This document shows positions 17,684 through 33,206 of a stretch of 64,000 nt of DNA, in pieces. This stretch comes from an uncultured Isoptericola sp. Its GTDB lineage: Bacteria > Actinomycetota > Actinomycetes > Actinomycetales > Cellulomonadaceae. The position numbers were made by a program, and so were the translations under genes. A model generated the notes under the pieces. That model ran no database searches. It worked only from the letters and a program-made list of their open reading frames with translations, and was not told where the DNA came from. How positions within the stretch are numbered: position 1 is the first letter of the stretch; each line of letters opens with the position of its first letter. The stretch spans positions 1 to 64,000 of the forward strand of contig CANMFP010000003.1 of the NCBI GenBank assembly GCA_947497265.1, given 5' to 3'.

Positions 17684-18835
17684 ATGCCTTGGGAGCTCAC
17701 CGTCGGGATCGTCGCCCTCGTCATCGGCGTCGCCGCGCTCACCACAGCGCTGGTGGGGATGCGTCGCGTCCGGCAGCGCGCCGCTGGTCGCCCGACGGCG
17801 CAGGCGCAGCCCGGCGCCCCCCGCGCGCGGCCGCAGATCGCCGTCGTCGTCAACCCCTCGAAGGAGAACACCGACCGGATCGTGGACACGGCGCGGCGGG
17901 TCTGCGCGGAGGCCGCGCTGCCCGCGCCGCTCTTCTACGACACCACCGTCGACGACCCCGGCACCGGACAGGCGCGCGCCGCGCTGGCCGAGGGCGTGGA
18001 CGTGGTGGTCGCCGCCGGCGGCGACGGCACGGTGCGGGCGGTCGCCGAAGGGCTCTCCGGTTCCGACACCCCCATGGGGATCATCCCGGCGGGCACGGGC
18101 AACCTGCTGGCCCGCAACCTCGACATCCCGCTGGCCGACGTGGGCGAGGCGATGGCGATCGTCATCGGGGGCCGGGACCGCCGCATCGACGTCGGCCGCG
18201 CGCGCATCACGCCCGTGCCCGACGACGGCCCGGCTCCGGGCGACGTCGAGCCCGAGGCCGTCGCCTCCGAGGAGGTGGCGCCCGAGGGGCCCGGCGACGA
18301 GCAGGTCGCGCACATCTTCCTCGTCATCGCCGGGCTCGGCTTCGACGCCGCGATGGTGGCGGACGCGGACGACCAGCTCAAGGCACGGATGGGCTGGGTC
18401 GCGTACTTCCTCGCCGGTGCACGGCACCTGCACGGGCGCCGGATGCGGGCGCAGATCACCATCGACGACGAGACGCCCGTGTCCGCCCGGCTGCGCAGCG
18501 TCCTGGTCGGCAACACCGGCCGGCTGCCCGGCGGCATCACGCTGCTGCCCGACGCGGTGATGGACGACGGCGTCCTCGACGTCGCCGCGATCGACACCCG
18601 CGGCGGTCTGGCCGGGTGGGCGCAGCTCTTCGGCGAGGTGGTCGCGCAGGGCATGGGCGTGCAGAACGAGGCGAAGCTCAAGATCGGCCGCATCGACCAC
18701 GTGCGCGCACGCCACATCCGCATCGACGTCGAGGGCGGGGAGCAGGCGCAGGTCGACGGCGACGTGCTCGGCCGGGCCAGCTGCATGGAGTCGTGGGTGG
18801 AGCCGGGAGCGCTGGTGGTCCGGGCGCCCGCATAG
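17684..18835 (+). CDS. Diacylglycerol/lipid kinase family protein
   Basis: A 383-residue protein with one N-terminal membrane helix (residues 5-26) and a DAGK catalytic domain from ~50. Family features are VVVNPSKENTDR, the nucleotide-binding AAGGDGTVRAVAEGL, and IIPAGTGNLLARNL. It probably phosphorylates diacylglycerol or a related lipid at the membrane. An acidic insert of ~35 residues lies in mid-domain. I chose ATG 17684 because TATGTT stands exactly 6 bases upstream (leaderless) and the membrane helix begins here; the open frame extends upstream antisense to serS. The giant duplicated membrane protein starts 10 bases after its stop. Confidence 0.88.
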   Translation: MPWELTVGIVALVIGVAALTTALVGMRRVRQRAAGRPTAQAQPGAPRARPQIAVVVNPSKENTDRIVDTARRVCAEAALPAPLFYDTTVDDPGTGQARAALAEGVDVVVAAGGDGTVRAVAEGLSGSDTPMGIIPAGTGNLLARNLDIPLADVGEAMAIVIGGRDRRIDVGRARITPVPDDGPAPGDVEPEAVASEEVAPEGPGDEQVAHIFLVIAGLGFDAAMVADADDQLKARMGWVAYFLAGARHLHGRRMRAQITIDDETPVSARLRSVLVGNTGRLPGGITLLPDAVMDDGVLDVAAIDTRGGLAGWAQLFGEVVAQGMGVQNEAKLKIGRIDHVRARHIRIDVEGGEQAQVDGDVLGRASCMESWVEPGALVVRAPA

Positions 18836-18844
18836 GCTGACGGG

Positions 18845-21800
18845 GTGCGTCCCCTGGTCCGTCCCCTCACCGTCGTCGCCGCTCTGCTGGCCGCGCTCGT
18901 CCTGAGCCTGCTGCCCGCGACGGCGCACGCCGACGACGTCGACCGGCCGACCCAGACGCCGCTCGTCCTGGCGGGCGTGGCAGGCCTGCAGTGGTCGGAC
19001 GTGGACGCCGCACGCACCCCGAACCTGTGGCGGCTCGTGGGCGGCGGGTCGGTCGCCTCGGTGTCCGTGCGCACGCTGACGCCCACCTGCCCGCTCGACG
19101 CCTGGCTCTCGATGTCGGCGGGCAGCCGTGTCTCCGCCGCGGTGGACGAGGACGCGCTGCCGGAGTCCGGGACCGACGAGGAGGACGAGGACGGTCTCGC
19201 CACGGTCGGCGACCCGGCCGCCGCCGTCGGCTGCTCGGACCCGCCCCTGCTCCCCGCGGCGGCCGAGCCGGCACCCGTCACGGTGCCCGGCTGGAACAGC
19301 CTGGTCGACCAGGACACCACGGGCGCGACGGCGGACCCTGGCGCGCTCGGCGACCTCGCCGCGGCGGCGGGGGTGTGCACGACGGCGGCAGGCCCGGGCG
19401 GGGCGGTCGCCCTCGCGGACAGCACGGGTGACGTCCCGCGGTACGTCACCGGTGCCGGGGACCTCACGCCGGACGACGTCGCCGCCTGCCCGGTCACCGT
19501 CGTCGACCTGGAGGAGCTCCCCGACGCCGCGACGGAGCGCGCCGAGGCGCTCAGCGTGCTCGACGACACGATCGGCTCGCTGAGCACCCTGCTGCCCGGC
19601 GGCGGCCGGCTCGTCGTCGCCGGTGTCTCCGACACCCCGAACGGCCCGGCCGACCTCCAGGTGGTGGTGGACTGGACCGCTCCGGGCGGGACCGCCACCT
19701 GGCTGAGCTCCACCTCGGCCCGGTGGCCCGGCGTCGTGGTCAGCGCCGACCTCGCGGCCACGCTCGCCGACGCGATCACGGCGAGCGGCACCGCACCGCC
19801 CGCCGAGACCGACCCCGGGGACGACGGCGACGGCGACGCCTCCGGGCAGGAGGCCGCCGCGTTCACCGGCTCGCCCCTGGAACGGGGCGACGACCGGCGG
19901 CTGTCGGTGAGCCGGACGGTCGAGAACCGGCAGTACCTCGGCGTGCTCACCGAGGCGCTGCCGCTCATGACGCCCGTGCTCGTCGGCATCCTGGCGCTCG
20001 CCGACGTCCTCGTCGTGGCGGGGCTGCTGGTCGCGCGCCGCCGCACCGCGAGCACGACGCGCGCGCCGGGCACGGTGCCTCGCCGCCTGGCGATCGCCGT
20101 CCTGGCCGTCGCGGTCTCCCTGCCGGTGGCCGCGACGCTGGCCACCCTGACCCGCTGGTGGGTGGGCACCAACCCGGTGACGCTGCTCGCGGCGGCCGTC
20201 AGCACGGTCGCCCTGACCGTCACCCTCGTGGCCTGGGCACTGCGCCGCCTCGCCCGGCCCGGCCCCTGGCGTCTGCCGACCGCACTCGCGGCGGTCACCT
20301 GGCTCGTCCTGACCGTGGACGGTCTGACCGGCACCACGTTGCAGCAGGGCTCGCTGCTCGGCCCCGCCCCGTCGCTGGGCGCCCGGTTCTACGGCTTCTC
20401 GAACTCGGTGTTCGCCGTCTACTCCGTCGCCGGCCTGGTCCTCGCGGCCGGGCTGGCCGCCCTGCTGCGCGACGCCGGGGTGCGCCGCCGCACCCGCGTC
20501 CTGCTGGTCGCCGCCGTCGGCCTGGTGACCACCGCCGTCGACGGCCTGCCCCCGTTCGGCGCCGACCTCGGCGGCATCCTCGCCCTCCTGCCGGCGTTCG
20601 CCGTGCTCGTGGCAGGCGTCGCCGGGTGGCAGCTGACCTGGCGACGCGTCCTCGTGGTCGGGGGTGCCACGGTCGCGGCCGTCGCCCTCGTCTCCGTCGT
20701 CGACTGGGCGCTGCCCGGCCCGGGCACCCACCTCGGCGGGTTCGTCCAGTCCGTGCTCGACGGCGACGCGTTCGACGTGCTCGCCGGCAAGGCGGCCGGG
20801 GCGTGGGCGACCGTCGCGAACCCTGCCGGGGCGTTCGCCGTCGTCGTGTGCGCCGTCGTCGGCTGGGCCGTGCTCGATCCCGAGCGGGCGCGGCTGGGCG
20901 GCGTGGCCGCCGCCTACCGGGCCGACCCCCTGCTGCGTCGCGCCGTCCTCGCCCTGGTGACCGTCGCCGTCGTCGGCACCGTCCTGAACGACTCCGGGAT
21001 CGTGGTGGCGGTGTACGTGCTGCTCGCGTCCGCACCGCTCCTGGTCGTCGGGCCGCTCGAGCACGCCGACGCCCTCGCCACGACGGCCGCGCCTCCGGAC
21101 GGCCCGGGAGCACCCCGACCCGGCCCGCTGCTGGCCCGCACCCCCGCGGTCGCCGTCGGTGTGACCGCCGGCCTCCTCGTGGCGCTGCTGCTCGGCGCGG
21201 CGGCCGTGCCCGCCCGTGGCCTGGCGGGCGCCGGGGACGTGGCCGGGCCCGGGGTGCAGGTGCTCGACGAAGAACCCGTCGTCATCATCGGCACCGAGGG
21301 CCTGCGCTGGGAGGACGTCGAGCCGTCGTCGACGCCCACGCTGTGGGGCCTCCTGCGCGACGGCGCGAGCGCCACCGGTGTCACGGCCGCCGTGACCGGG
21401 GCCTCGGGCGACTGCACCGCTGCGGGATGGCTCGGCCTGAGCTCCGGGCGCAGCCCCGTCACCGGCGAGGCGGTCGACGGCGTGTGGACGTGCGCCCAGT
21501 GGGAGGTCGCCGGCGGCCGTGCCCCCGCCGCCGACGGCTCCGCGCAGGTCGAGGGCTGGCAGGACCTGGCCGACCTGCAGTCCCGGTCCGAGTTCCTGCC
21601 CCGGCTCGGCGTGCTCGGCGAGATGCTGGCCGACGGCGGCACCTGCGCCACCGCCGTCGAACCCGGCGCGGCGCTCGCCCTGGCCGGCACCGACGGGACC
21701 GTCGAGCGGTACCGCACCCTCGAGGCGGCGCTCGCCGACCCCGAGGAAGCGTTCGCCTGCCCCGTGACGATGGTCGACGCCGGTTCCGCGCCGTACCACC

Positions 21801-23344
21801 CCAGCGGGACCGGCAGCGCGTCCCGTCCCGTGCCGGACGACGCCACCTCCGGGGGCGACGAGCGGGCCGCCGCGCTGCGGACCGTCGACGCGAACGTGCG
21901 GCGCGTGCTCGCCGTCGTGCCCGACGAGACCACCGTCATGGTGCTCGACGTCGGCAACCCGGCACCCGGGCGGCCGTCGCTGGGCGTCGGCGTGGTGCAG
22001 ACCGACACCGACACCGCTCCCGCCTACCTGACGACCTCGTCGACCCGCTGGCTCGGCGTGGTGCGGCTGCTGGACGTGCCCGTCACGCTGGTCGACGCCT
22101 ACGACCTGACCCGGCCCGCCGACTTCTCCGGCGCGCCCCTCACCCTCGCCGACGACCGCCCCAGCACCACCACCGCGACCGTCCGCGAGCTCGACTCCCT
22201 CACCGCCCGGGACCACGAGCTGCGCACCACCACCGGCACGATCACCGGCATCCCGGCGATCCTCGCCCTCGTGGCGCTCGCCCTGGTGGTCCTCTGGCTC
22301 CCCCGTCTGCGCCGCCAGGCACCTCGCGCCGCACGCGCCTGGTCGCGCACGCTGGACGTCGCGCTCCTCGCCCTCGCCTCCGTGCCCGCCGCGACGTTCC
22401 TCATGACCACCTGGGGCTGGTGGCGCGGCGAGAACATCACGCCAGGGCTGTGGCTGTCCCTCGGCGCCAGCACGGCGCTCGTCGCGCTCGTCGCCGCACT
22501 CTGCCCGCGCCGACCGGTGTGGGTCGGCCCCACCGTGCTGGCCACCGTCACGTTCGCCGTGCTGACGCTGGACGCGCTGCTCGGCACACCGCTGCACCGC
22601 GGGAGCCCCCTGGGCGCCGCACCGACGCTCGGCGGGCGGTTCTACGGGTTCGGCAACCCGACGTACTCCGTCTACGCGGTGGCCGCGGTCGTCTGTTCCG
22701 CCGGTCTGGGGACCGTGCTCGCCCGCCGCCTCGGCCGGGCGGCAGGCGGTGTGGTCGCCTCCGTGGTGGGCGCGGTGGCGCTCGCGGTGACCGTGCTGCC
22801 CACGCTCGGGGCCGACGTCGGGGGCGGGCTCGTGCTGCTGCCCGTCATGGTCGTCGTCGTCCTCGCCGTCGTCGGGGCGCGGATCACCTGGCAACGCCTG
22901 CTGGTCGCCGGTGGGGCCGGCGTGCTGCTCGTGGCAGGCATCGGGATCCTCGACTGGCTGCGCCCGGTCGCCGAGCGGTCGCACCTCGGCTCGTTCGTGC
23001 AGTCGATGATCGACGGCACCGGCCTCGAGACGATCGGTCGCAAGGCCGGGTACGCCTACCGGTCGTTGTCCGGCGGGTTCGACGCCTGGCTGGCGCTCGC
23101 CGTCGTCGTGCTGACCGTCCTGGCGCTGTGGGGGCCGCGACGGTGGCGTCCGGACTGGCTCGCCCGGTCCGAACGGGCGTGGCCGCTGCTGCGGCCCGTC
23201 CTCGTCGCGCTGCTGATCGCCGGCGTCGGCGGCGCGGTCGCGAACGACTACGGGATCCGCGTCGTGTCGCTCATGCTGTTCGCCGCGGTGCCGCTCGTCG
23301 CCCTCGTCGCGCTCCGCACCGACGACGCCGAACCGGCGGACTGA
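18845..23344 (+). CDS. Giant membrane protein with two homologous halves, function unknown
   Basis: A 1499-residue protein with a signal peptide (about residues 1-29, ending TAHA) and roughly 20 hydrophobic helices. It consists of two related halves of ~700 residues. Each half has an extracytoplasmic domain beginning like an alkaline-phosphatase-superfamily fold (LVLAGVAGLQWSDVD near 40; VVIIGTEGLRWEDVE near 812), then a membrane block. Matching motifs are FYGFSN/FYGFGN (~513/~1263), FGADLGG/LGADVGG, HLGGFVQS/HLGSFVQS and NDSGI/NDYGI. I see no intact metal or nucleophile set, so the phosphatase-like part may be inactive. It starts as a leaderless GTG (TAGGCT 6 bases upstream), 10 bases after the lipid kinase. 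I do not recognise a named family. Confidence 0.85.
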   Translation: MRPLVRPLTVVAALLAALVLSLLPATAHADDVDRPTQTPLVLAGVAGLQWSDVDAARTPNLWRLVGGGSVASVSVRTLTPTCPLDAWLSMSAGSRVSAAVDEDALPESGTDEEDEDGLATVGDPAAAVGCSDPPLLPAAAEPAPVTVPGWNSLVDQDTTGATADPGALGDLAAAAGVCTTAAGPGGAVALADSTGDVPRYVTGAGDLTPDDVAACPVTVVDLEELPDAATERAEALSVLDDTIGSLSTLLPGGGRLVVAGVSDTPNGPADLQVVVDWTAPGGTATWLSSTSARWPGVVVSADLAATLADAITASGTAPPAETDPGDDGDGDASGQEAAAFTGSPLERGDDRRLSVSRTVENRQYLGVLTEALPLMTPVLVGILALADVLVVAGLLVARRRTASTTRAPGTVPRRLAIAVLAVAVSLPVAATLATLTRWWVGTNPVTLLAAAVSTVALTVTLVAWALRRLARPGPWRLPTALAAVTWLVLTVDGLTGTTLQQGSLLGPAPSLGARFYGFSNSVFAVYSVAGLVLAAGLAALLRDAGVRRRTRVLLVAAVGLVTTAVDGLPPFGADLGGILALLPAFAVLVAGVAGWQLTWRRVLVVGGATVAAVALVSVVDWALPGPGTHLGGFVQSVLDGDAFDVLAGKAAGAWATVANPAGAFAVVVCAVVGWAVLDPERARLGGVAAAYRADPLLRRAVLALVTVAVVGTVLNDSGIVVAVYVLLASAPLLVVGPLEHADALATTAAPPDGPGAPRPGPLLARTPAVAVGVTAGLLVALLLGAAAVPARGLAGAGDVAGPGVQVLDEEPVVIIGTEGLRWEDVEPSSTPTLWGLLRDGASATGVTAAVTGASGDCTAAGWLGLSSGRSPVTGEAVDGVWTCAQWEVAGGRAPAADGSAQVEGWQDLADLQSRSEFLPRLGVLGEMLADGGTCATAVEPGAALALAGTDGTVERYRTLEAALADPEEAFACPVTMVDAGSAPYHPSGTGSASRPVPDDATSGGDERAAALRTVDANVRRVLAVVPDETTVMVLDVGNPAPGRPSLGVGVVQTDTDTAPAYLTTSSTRWLGVVRLLDVPVTLVDAYDLTRPADFSGAPLTLADDRPSTTTATVRELDSLTARDHELRTTTGTITGIPAILALVALALVVLWLPRLRRQAPRAARAWSRTLDVALLALASVPAATFLMTTWGWWRGENITPGLWLSLGASTALVALVAALCPRRPVWVGPTVLATVTFAVLTLDALLGTPLHRGSPLGAAPTLGGRFYGFGNPTYSVYAVAAVVCSAGLGTVLARRLGRAAGGVVASVVGAVALAVTVLPTLGADVGGGLVLLPVMVVVVLAVVGARITWQRLLVAGGAGVLLVAGIGILDWLRPVAERSHLGSFVQSMIDGTGLETIGRKAGYAYRSLSGGFDAWLALAVVVLTVLALWGPRRWRPDWLARSERAWPLLRPVLVALLIAGVGGAVANDYGIRVVSLMLFAAVPLVALVALRTDDAEPAD

Positions 23345-23347
23345 CGG

Positions 23348-24223
23348 TCAGCCGCGCGTGCGGGTGCCCATCCGGCCGATCCTGTCGACGACCCGCCGCA
23401 CCTGCCGTGCGCTCACGGCCGCCATGACGTCGCGGTACTGACCGGCACGGTGGAGCTGGCCGGCCAGGTCGTTCGACGACGGCCGGTGCCGCAGGTCGCA
23501 GGGCACCTCGACGGCGACGTAGCCCGCCCGCAGCAGGTCGATCGTCATCCCGGTCTCGACCCCCCAGCCGTGCGCCAGCGGGGTGGCGGCCTCGAACGCG
23601 TCCCGCGTCAGGCAGCGCATCCCGGACAGCGGCTGAGTCGGGCTCCAGCCGGTGAGCCGGTGGATGGCGCGCCGTGCGGCACCGACCACGATGCCGCGTC
23701 CGCCGGCGCCCTTCTGCGTGGGCAGCAGCGCGATGGCGAGGTCGGCGACGCCCTCGCGCACCGGGCTGACGAGCGGGGCGGTGTTGACGGCGGTGTCGCC
23801 CAGGTCGCCGTCGATGAAGAGCAGCAGCCGCGGTGCCCGGCCGTCGGCGTCCCGCATGGCGACGACGGCGGCCCCCGTCTCCATCGCGGCGGCCTTGCCC
23901 CGGTTGTGGGAGTGCCGCACGACCACTGCTCCGGCGTCGCGCGCGACGTGCTGGGTGTCGTCCTCGGACCCGTCGTCCACCACGAGCACGAGGTCGACGT
24001 GCGGGATGGCACGGGCGGACCGGACGGTCGCCGCGATCCGCTCGGACTCGTCCTTCGCAGGGATCACGACCGCGACGCGCTGGACGCTCCGGCCGCCACG
24101 GGCGGTGGGCGGCCGTGGTGTCTTGGCCACGGGCATGCTCGGTCGGCGTGCCCCCGGGTTCACCGCCGTCTCGCCGGGCATCGGCTCACGGCTCGTCCGT
24201 GTTGCCCCTTGGTCCGCGTTCAC
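23348..24223 (-). CDS. Family 2 glycosyltransferase
   Basis: A 291-residue GT-A fold glycosyltransferase. After a ~45-residue disordered N-terminus come VAVVIPAKDESERI, the VVDDGSEDDT nucleotide-binding motif, HNRGKAAAMETG, and DGD (LLFIDGDLGDT) as the metal-binding triad. The overall pattern resembles glucosyl-3-phosphoglycerate synthases and polyprenyl-phosphate sugar transferases; the acceptor is unknown. No membrane anchor is visible. The start at GTG 24223 is tentative since internal ATGs also precede the domain. It converges with the giant membrane protein, with 3 bases between their stops. Confidence 0.82.
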   Translation of the reverse strand: MNADQGATRTSREPMPGETAVNPGARRPSMPVAKTPRPPTARGGRSVQRVAVVIPAKDESERIAATVRSARAIPHVDLVLVVDDGSEDDTQHVARDAGAVVVRHSHNRGKAAAMETGAAVVAMRDADGRAPRLLLFIDGDLGDTAVNTAPLVSPVREGVADLAIALLPTQKGAGGRGIVVGAARRAIHRLTGWSPTQPLSGMRCLTRDAFEAATPLAHGWGVETGMTIDLLRAGYVAVEVPCDLRHRPSSNDLAGQLHRAGQYRDVMAAVSARQVRRVVDRIGRMGTRTRG

Positions 24224-32544: not shown

Positions 32545-32823
32545 ATGAGTCTCAACATCAAGAACGAGCGGACGCACGCGCTGGTGCGTCGGCTCGCCGA
32601 GCTGACCGGCGCGTCGCAGACGAGCGCCGTCGAGGAGGCGGTGCAGCGGCGGCTGGACGAGCTGCTCGCGGAACGGGACGACGAGGCCGGCGAGCGCGCC
32701 GCGCGCCAGGAGCGGGTCGACCGGCTGCTCGGCGACCTGCGGGCCGAGCTCACCGAGACGGACCGAGCAGCGCTGCGCGGGTCGGACGCCGACCTCTACG
32801 ACGACGCGGGGATGCCCGCATGA
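32545..32823 (+). CDS. vapB: Antitoxin of a type II VapBC system
   Basis: A 92-residue antitoxin. The N-terminal ribbon-helix-helix-like part (MSLNIKNERTHALVRRLAELTGASQTSAVEEAVQRR) matches the VapB subfamily that binds operator DNA, and the acidic C-terminus (TETDRAALRGSDADLYDD) would plug the toxin. It overlaps vapC by 4 bases (ATGA). The three half-sites over its promoter support autoregulation. Confidence 0.88.
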   Translation: MSLNIKNERTHALVRRLAELTGASQTSAVEEAVQRRLDELLAERDDEAGERAARQERVDRLLGDLRAELTETDRAALRGSDADLYDDAGMPA

Positions 32824-33206
32824 TCGTCGACACGTCGGCGGTGGTCGCCGTGTTCCTGAGCGAGCGCGAGGCGGACCAGATCGTCGATCTCCTGATCGAC
32901 CGCCCGGCGGCCATGTCCGCGGCCACCCTCGCCGAGCTCGGGATCGTCGTCGGCCGGCTCGCTCCCCAGCACGCCCGGCGGCTCGACGCGCTGCTGGCCG
33001 AGTGGCAGGTCGAGGTCGCCCCCTTCACCGCCGCCCAGGCGAGGATCGCCCGGGACGCCTATCGGGACTTCGGCAAGGGCACCGGTCACCCGGCGCGCCT
33101 GAACCTGGGCGACTGCTTCACGTACGCCCTGGCGGCCGAACGCCGCGACGAGCTGCTGTACGTCGGGGACGACTTCACGCACACCGGGGTGCGGTCGGCC
33201 CTGTGA
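32820..33206 (+). CDS. vapC: PIN-domain ribonuclease toxin
   Basis: A 128-residue PIN nuclease of the VapC type. The acidic metal site is complete: Asp 4 (MIVDTSA), Glu 39 (TLAELG), Asp 98 (NLGDCFTYALA) and Asp 117/118 (YVGDDF). Such toxins cleave tRNA or rRNA when the antitoxin is lost; the target here is unknown. It is coupled to vapB by an ATGA overlap and converges with the spermidine-synthase-like gene 4 bases away. Confidence 0.92.
   Translation: MIVDTSAVVAVFLSEREADQIVDLLIDRPAAMSAATLAELGIVVGRLAPQHARRLDALLAEWQVEVAPFTAAQARIARDAYRDFGKGTGHPARLNLGDCFTYALAAERRDELLYVGDDFTHTGVRSAL

Follow-up and report, generated by a model that had tools for sequence, protein, structure and literature searches.

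Two fused homologous halves of a membrane protein from an uncultured Isoptericola sp.: a candidate outer-face polymerase or ligase of lipid-linked glycans in Actinomycetota

In the polymerases and ligases that use lipid-diphosphate-linked substrates, every conserved residue lies on the outer face of the membrane, according to passages of PMC10920833. The same passages describe a long outer loop near the C terminus in the clans GT-C1 and GT-C2, and two Arg and one His employed by the O-antigen ligase. Passages of PMC6705760 and PMC12977500 present SteAB as proteins that regulate wall hydrolysis and the separation of cells and that occur in basal lineages and in some Clostridia. The present analysis concerns 64,000 nucleotides from an uncultured Isoptericola sp. 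(contig CANMFP010000003.1, positions 1 to 64,000; hereafter the window), where a single open frame with a GTG start (18845..23344, + strand) encodes a protein of 1499 residues made of two fused homologous halves. We name one half-unit X, the fused two-half form X-X or double, and an unfused half single. X is a candidate GT-C type B-like enzyme that lies outside the sequence families tested (Pfam, NCBIfam, PDB), shows a new domain architecture and occurs in this clade as a fused pair. It is probably an outer-face polyprenyl-diphosphate-glycan polymerase or ligase, each half combining a predicted fold of the SEDS/O-antigen-ligase class (GT-C type B) with an alkaline-phosphatase-like domain. Literature searches found no paper on the X family or system; X has no mention in the passages of PMC6705760 and PMC12977500, and the words glycosyltransferase and MurJ are absent from the main text of both.

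Comparison of residues 1-770 with residues 771-1499 by BLASTP gives 230 bits (E = 3e-69) and 257 identities over 738 positions (35%). The global score of half A against half B is 891, to be compared with 136 +/- 26 (maximum 224) in 200 shuffles of half B made inside 20-residue blocks, which roughly keep the hydrophobicity pattern; this null rules out two membrane proteins that are alike by chance. Shared motifs follow one another in the same order, namely RFYGFSN in half A (residues 514-520; 20384..20404, + strand) and RFYGFGN in half B (residues 1265-1271; 22637..22657, + strand), both on the predicted outer face, then GAD..G (572-577 and 1322-1327), HLG.F (629-633 and 1380-1384) and ND.G (715-718 and 1467-1470). 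The offset between the halves is 750-752 residues in the membrane domain and 772 in the N-domain (44/816). Among 82 single-form relatives, 58 positions are shared by at least 92%; of these, the 18 half-A rows keep 90% and the 21 half-B rows 91%, on average. X-X has no family match in Pfam (E<=1), NCBIfam (E<=1) or PHROGs (E<=0.1). An earlier note on this DNA, made from the letters alone, had described two fused homologous halves with ordered motifs at a steady offset and no named family; all of this is borne out, the motifs being located where it placed them, and the alignment of the halves that it proposed as a check scores far above the shuffled null.

Hydropathy averaged over 86 aligned halves (two terminal helices being split by hand) gives each half an N-terminal helix and 11 further helices. 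In half A, the N-terminal hydrophobic segment (residues 3-26; 18851..18922, + strand) is signal-peptide-like by inspection and would export the next domain, and the membrane domain with its 11 predicted transmembrane helices follows at 19895..21115 (+ strand). The chain is predicted to re-enter the membrane at the N-terminal helix of half B (residues 767-790; 21143..21214, + strand), after which the topology of half A is repeated. Predicted inner loops average 2.2-5.6 Arg/Lys and outer loops 0-1.5, with the exception of a 40-residue outer loop (614-654), where 4.5 Arg/Lys are accompanied by 3.2 Asp/Glu. The C-terminal tail, short and on the inner side, averages 0.7 Arg/Lys. In the membrane domain, 28 positions reach a conservation of at least 93% of rows; assigned by hand, 26 of them belong to outer loops or to the outer ends of helices, the other two being P424, mid-helix, and R693, inner. 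R508 is present in 86 of 86 rows, and H623 and K643 sit in the 40-residue loop. In half B this loop runs from D1370 via R1373 and H1380 to R1399-K1400 (22952..23044, + strand, by topology assignment) and, by analogy with the enzymes covered in passages of PMC10920833, it is likely to be the acceptor/diphosphate loop.

The membrane domain of half B (22157..23341, + strand) has a predicted fold like those of WaaL and RodA. Its AF2 model (pLDDT 92.0, pTM 0.92) was compared by VIA-align, which rescored Foldseek's best 1000 chains, and the top seven rows are WaaL, RodA or FtsW. Structure alignments left out L119, L121, L136, L150 and short genes, and a later alignment dropped six of 90 rows (half A of L125, L128 and L129; L130, L144 and L186). 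The predicted membrane fold is that of GT-C type B, the RodA and WaaL class, and the other marks of this type, outer-face conserved residues, a conserved Arg and a long outer loop on the C-terminal side, are present. R508, R616, H623 and K643 (half-B numbering) occupy places comparable, by position only, to the arginines and histidine of the O-antigen ligase. At the level of sequence, the Pfam, NCBIfam and PDB searches do not place X in CAZy GT119 or GT121: the membrane-domain profile retrieved no RodA or WaaL from PDB sequences (E<=10), only chance matches to opioid receptors, and 40 relatives gave no SEDS/O-antigen-ligase-type Pfam match at E<=0.1. X differs from RodA/FtsW (GT119) in its motifs and in the alkaline-phosphatase-like domain added before the membrane domain, and it is not known to use Lipid II. 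Unlike WaaL (GT121), X has an alkaline-phosphatase-like domain, has two copies fused and lacks a ligase Pfam match. Its host is also expected to lack lipopolysaccharide.

The domain that precedes the membrane helices (18950..19894 in half A, as aligned to half B; residues 808-1102, 21266..22150, in half B; both + strand) has the core alpha/beta fold of the alkaline phosphatase superfamily. The family profile of X matches structures of this superfamily, and among 40 relatives Pfam gave sub-threshold matches to SGSH_C (4/40) and Phosphodiest (2/40), both members of it, besides two single DUF matches at chance level. An intact two-metal site is absent, two of the three readable ligand positions being replaced in the profile alignment to NPP. 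The Asp of the NPP motif SIDGL, first metal ligand, corresponds to the Pro of GVPGL in the family profile (Ala in half A and Glu in half B of the window protein), and the DHG motif retains its Asp, its His being replaced by Ser. The Thr at the nucleophile position is kept in the family profile; half B has Asp there. X thus departs from NPP, sulfatases and iPGM both in its ligands and in its fusion to a polytopic domain. An active phosphatase was judged unlikely from the profile alignment, and the domain is probably catalytically dead, as the earlier note had anticipated in describing phosphatase-superfamily N-domains without an intact catalytic set. A divergent X at L242:7392-9653 retains the Asp of the first phosphatase motif (VIDG) and matches four Pfam models of the superfamily, all below cut-off. 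Basal members of the family may retain more of the metal site.

Two other functions can be considered for a protein of this architecture. X could be an active transferase of the alkaline phosphatase type whose product is a glycan carrying a phospholipid head group, in the style of LtaS or of the GPI ethanolamine-phosphate transferases, with a lipid kinase recycling the diacylglycerol. The superfamily fold agrees with this, as do an order of N-terminal phosphatase-like and C-terminal polytopic domains like that of PIG-N/O/G, the retention in the family profile of one ligand Asp and of the Thr at the nucleophile position of NPP, and a lipid kinase gene that lies 9 bases upstream in the window. 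It is nevertheless very unlikely: the ligand replacements described above, together with the Asp in place of Thr in half B, leave no intact catalytic metal site of the LtaS/GPI-ethanolamine-phosphate type, and among 39 loci drawn from the class a lipid kinase lies within four genes of X in two and is adjacent in none. Also highly improbable is a non-catalytic role for X as a sensor or scaffold, like the phosphatase-like periplasmic domain of PbgA/YejM, tuning the activity of a lipid carrier or of wall hydrolases (SteAB). A tether would need neither as many as eleven helices nor the Asp, Arg, Asn, His and Lys that all 86 of 86 rows share, no cytoplasmic domain is predicted, and X has a conserved polar site on the outer face that sets it apart from PbgA/YejM. 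Helix order and number differ as well, the helices of PbgA being N-terminal to its domain.

X is widespread in Actinomycetota, being found in 61 of 148 genomes drawn from the class and in 114 of 296 drawn from the phylum. In the relatives set, 34 of 38 genomes (the window's own counted in) carry a homologue. All 17 congeners searched do so, in the double form, at 54-89% identity; one match spans essentially the whole query in 16 of them and is split over two contigs in the 17th. The nearest named genomes are Isoptericola (89% identity). The double form is also found in three further genera of the window's family, and named doubles among the loci listed belong to Isoptericola, Oerskovia, Cellulomonas, Cellulosimicrobium, Xylanimicrobium, Promicromonospora and Puerhibacterium (Cellulomonadaceae/Promicromonosporaceae). 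Single-half proteins, for which the earlier note had proposed to look in related genomes, exist widely, in three other genera of the family and in most families of the order. Locus L119 (QAPD01000038.1, titled Sphaerisporangium cinnabarinum) has a double X and, on the serS side, neighbours that resemble those of Cellulosimicrobium; this record may be mislabelled or contaminated.

Gene order in other loci connects X to a lipid-linked glycan pathway. The arrangement SteA-MctB(SteB)-PNPT-MurJ-GT4-X-PyrG is found in L098, L086 and L087, and likewise in L083, where PyrG was not called; L241 has SteA-MctB-GT2-GT4-X-PNPT-PyrG, and L238 has SteA-MctB-MurJ-GT4-X-PNPT-PyrG, as does L232 with two X. From these comparisons, SteA-SteB-PNPT-MurJ-GT4-X would be the ancestral operon, with the SteA-SteB (MctB) cell separation locus as ancestral neighbour of X. 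Other loci of the phylum draw, e.g., L239, L242, L243 and L246, lack an operon of this type. The window's genome still has SteA-MctB-PNPT-MurJ-PyrG (G000:C10:6131-12707), without GT4 and X. The PNPT gene ('c43', MraY-like) passes PF00953 in its L241 copy (31.3 against a cut-off of 27 bits). Since the match is weak in L229 and absent in L086 and L098, the actinomycete protein is taken as a divergent MraY/WecA relative; it keeps the paired Asp, NLLDLRPGRA-like and GDxGxN motifs.

Co-occurrence points in the same direction. In the class draw, X and PNPT are found together in 57 genomes, X alone in four, PNPT alone in six and neither in 81 (p 6e-29, a value that ignores the kinship of the genomes). 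Kinship is addressed by the family count alone, with both genes in 19 families, X only in two and PNPT only in two. Because the genes are far apart in several genomes (e.g., 4.35 Mb on one contig in G094), linkage has no power to explain this association. MctB is less specific, being present in 58 of 61 genomes with X, yet also in 32 of 87 without it, and urease, used as a patchy control, shows no association with X (17/61 vs. 34/87, p 0.17).

The duplication, the predicted folds and topology, the conservation, the gene context and the co-occurrence are computational results, from which we infer catalysis, substrate and pairing. Fold, topology, conservation, context and co-occurrence, taken together, make a polymerase or ligase that acts after flipping, at the outer face, the most likely function of X. 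The pathway would run parallel to peptidoglycan synthesis and mirror MraY-MurG-MurJ-SEDS. The MraY/WecA-like enzyme whose gene adjoins X in ancestral loci would charge polyprenyl phosphate with a sugar phosphate. The lipid-linked sugar would be lengthened by GT4 and/or GT2 enzymes and moved by a MurJ-like flippase to the outer face, where X would polymerise the glycan or hand it to an acceptor. The pseudo-phosphatase domain would probably position or bind either the substrate or the acceptor. Where two paralogous X units share one chain, as in the window's clade, they would form an obligate 1:1 pair, and half B, which keeps the family's membrane-domain arginines, would be the likelier catalytic half. 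More tentatively, many Actinomycetota may possess a second, peptidoglycan-like line for a surface polymer, made up of MraY-like, GT and MurJ-like proteins and of X as a new polymerase family that has a dead phosphatase domain and tends to work in pairs. Polymer synthesis and daughter-cell separation may indeed be coupled, because the pathway seems to be ancestrally encoded with the SteAB genes. If the reading as polymerase or ligase is right, the unannotated X family would supply the outer-face polymerisation or ligation step still lacking in a lipid-linked glycan pathway, the remaining steps of which can be recognised in the same genomes. The class that holds major antibiotic targets (RodA/FtsW) would gain a new sequence family, surface-polymer synthesis would have a testable tie to SteAB-controlled cell separation, and the naturally fused pair of polymerase-like subunits would allow the role of pairing to be dissected.

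The history of the fusion bears on the pairing. Three trees were built on chosen rows (69, 59 and 31, the last being the mixture-model tree). The A halves form one clade and the B halves another (100 and 100; 100/100 each in the mixture-model tree), so that the fusion looks old and single. In the mixture-model tree, a 100/98 branch has both halves and three unfused genes on one side. Kribbella L195 and Actinomadura L132 join half B at 100/100, and Kribbella L172, from the same genome as L195, joins half A on a long branch at just 85/72. The native singles of Micrococcales, among them L039 and L041 of the window's family, are placed elsewhere. In Cellulomonas sp. JH27-2 (L150:4685-10468), an early-ending double (1218 residues) and a native single of the other lineage (714 residues) stand side by side, convergent and overlapping by 18 bases. 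Two older paralogues most likely fused, the fused gene then coming to occupy the native gene's place; a local duplication, direct fusion and later spread of B is a possible alternative. The weak A-side link to L172 counts against fusion of older paralogues, and L132, whose frame starts open at the edge of its contig, may for that reason be a truncated fused copy. A simple in-situ, in-frame duplication of the native gene was rejected as the most probable course, the trees parting the fused halves from the native singles. Of the tandem duplication proposed in the earlier note, the duplication is real; the tree and L150 indicate that it was probably not a simple in-frame event in a local gene.

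In other lineages, unfused X genes also occur as tandem or close pairs (L046 in G029, L229, L230, L231, L232, L233 and L240) and as divergent pairs (L234, L235). At L229:7566-12912 and L230:7053-12390, the MraY-like gene has an X on either side (MurJ-X-PNPT-X). The pair label requires seven changes over 16 rows of the tree (gains and losses pooled, loci partly chosen for pairs), which suggests that pairing recurs. Pairs are over-represented in the phylum draw because its first seven loci were chosen for two X matches. In the Promicromonospora doubles L125, L128 and L129, the match of half A ends at position 553-555 of the 724-position model, ahead of the outer-loop and ND.G motifs, half B being complete. 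Half A of the window protein keeps R514, N520, D574, H629, K649 and N715-D716 and has Leu at 623 and Gly at 648 in place of the family Arg; the two arginines are kept in 39% and 17% of the 18 half-A rows. This truncation and the loss of the two arginines in most half-A rows make half B the likelier catalytic half. Against it, the half-B rows lack the Ser of ND.G, one membrane-domain Gln and one N-domain Arg (0/21 each). As part of the proposal of a second line, it can be suggested, with reserve, that X units tend to pair unlinked, in tandem or fused, and that the window's lineage has divided the work between a catalytic and a regulatory half.

The immediate neighbours of X-X were compared across four sets of loci. 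The window has the gene order HAD, serS, kinase, X, GT2 and DUF5926; the neighbour-cluster labels SerS and Cof-type HAD are provisional, the other labels being checked by Pfam. Counts refer to four genes on either side of X. The neighbour hidden Markov models were built from clusters at the first 60 loci, and the counts are not blind; genes of AT-rich loci were called with a self-trained model. X was called in 18 of 20 loci of the relatives set (L040 and L047 missed), in 77 of 80 of the genome_contigs set (the best 80 of 340 loci; L124, L133 and L170 missed) and in 39 of 40 of the class draw (40 loci from 37 of 61 positive genomes; L071 missed), where 31 of the 39 have a complete window of four genes on each side. 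The phylum draw has 20 loci from 20 of 114 positive genomes.

The GT2 glycosyltransferase gene, convergent with X-X (23348..24136, - strand), is a neighbour shared with the single-form relatives. GT2 is near X in 57 of 77 genome_contigs loci (adjacent in 41), 18 of 39 class-draw loci (adjacent in 16) and nine of 18 loci of relatives (adjacent in six), for an expectation of about 4.5% within 5 kb (17 PF00535 matches in 3.77 Mb). Other genes counted in the class draw are GT4 (six loci, five adjacent), MurJ (four) and PNPT (four), and in the phylum draw PNPT (11), GT4 (8), MctB (8), MurJ (7) and SteA (7). Any of five glycan genes is near X in 23/39 class-draw and 60/77 genome_contigs loci, and any glycan gene in 14/20 phylum-draw loci. 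The glycosyltransferase link is real, and the envelope glycan work at which the earlier note hinted from the two neighbouring genes is probably right. The product of GT2 itself is uncertain, because the nearest NCBIfam entry of the window GT2, AglJ, is far below cut-off and the nearest solved structure is glucosyl-3-phosphoglycerate synthase (E 6e-11). DUF5926 (PF19348) often comes after GT2 (e.g., L072, L138, L146) and is within reach of X in 46 of 77 genome_contigs loci.

GT87 (PF09594), usually divergent from X, is near it in 32 of 77 genome_contigs loci, directly adjacent in all 32, and in eight of 39 class-draw loci, directly adjacent in seven. These neighbours suggest mannose or another lipid-phosphate sugar in some lineages, the presumed donor of GT87 being polyprenyl-phosphate mannose. 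X might then be a flippase or scramblase of polyprenyl-linked sugars, such as polyprenyl-phosphate mannose for GT87, rather than a transferase, and its polytopic nature and conserved charged residues would suit a carrier. We find this improbable, since conservation at both gates is what one expects of a carrier and X conserves one face, the ancestral operon already has MurJ-like flippases, and the predicted fold resembles that of transferases.

The YegS/DAGK-type lipid kinase gene (17684..18835, + strand), whose product has an N-terminal transmembrane helix, borders X directly only where X is double, among the loci compared. A kinase is near X in nine of 18 loci of relatives (adjacent in seven) and 21 of 77 genome_contigs loci (adjacent in 12), and all 19 adjacent cases are doubles. 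Adjacency is secondary, because pheA often lies between kinase/serS and X in single-form relatives. The link is thus a late effect of synteny; the kinase as an ancestral partner was rejected on the class-draw counts given above. The check proposed in the earlier note, whether single halves always neighbour the kinase, comes out negative on the same counts, GT2 being the conserved neighbour, and its hint of a kinase partner finds no ancestral support. Elsewhere in the window, two small overlapping genes at 32545-33206 presumably encode, as judged by eye, a VapB-type antitoxin and a PIN-domain, VapC-type toxin.
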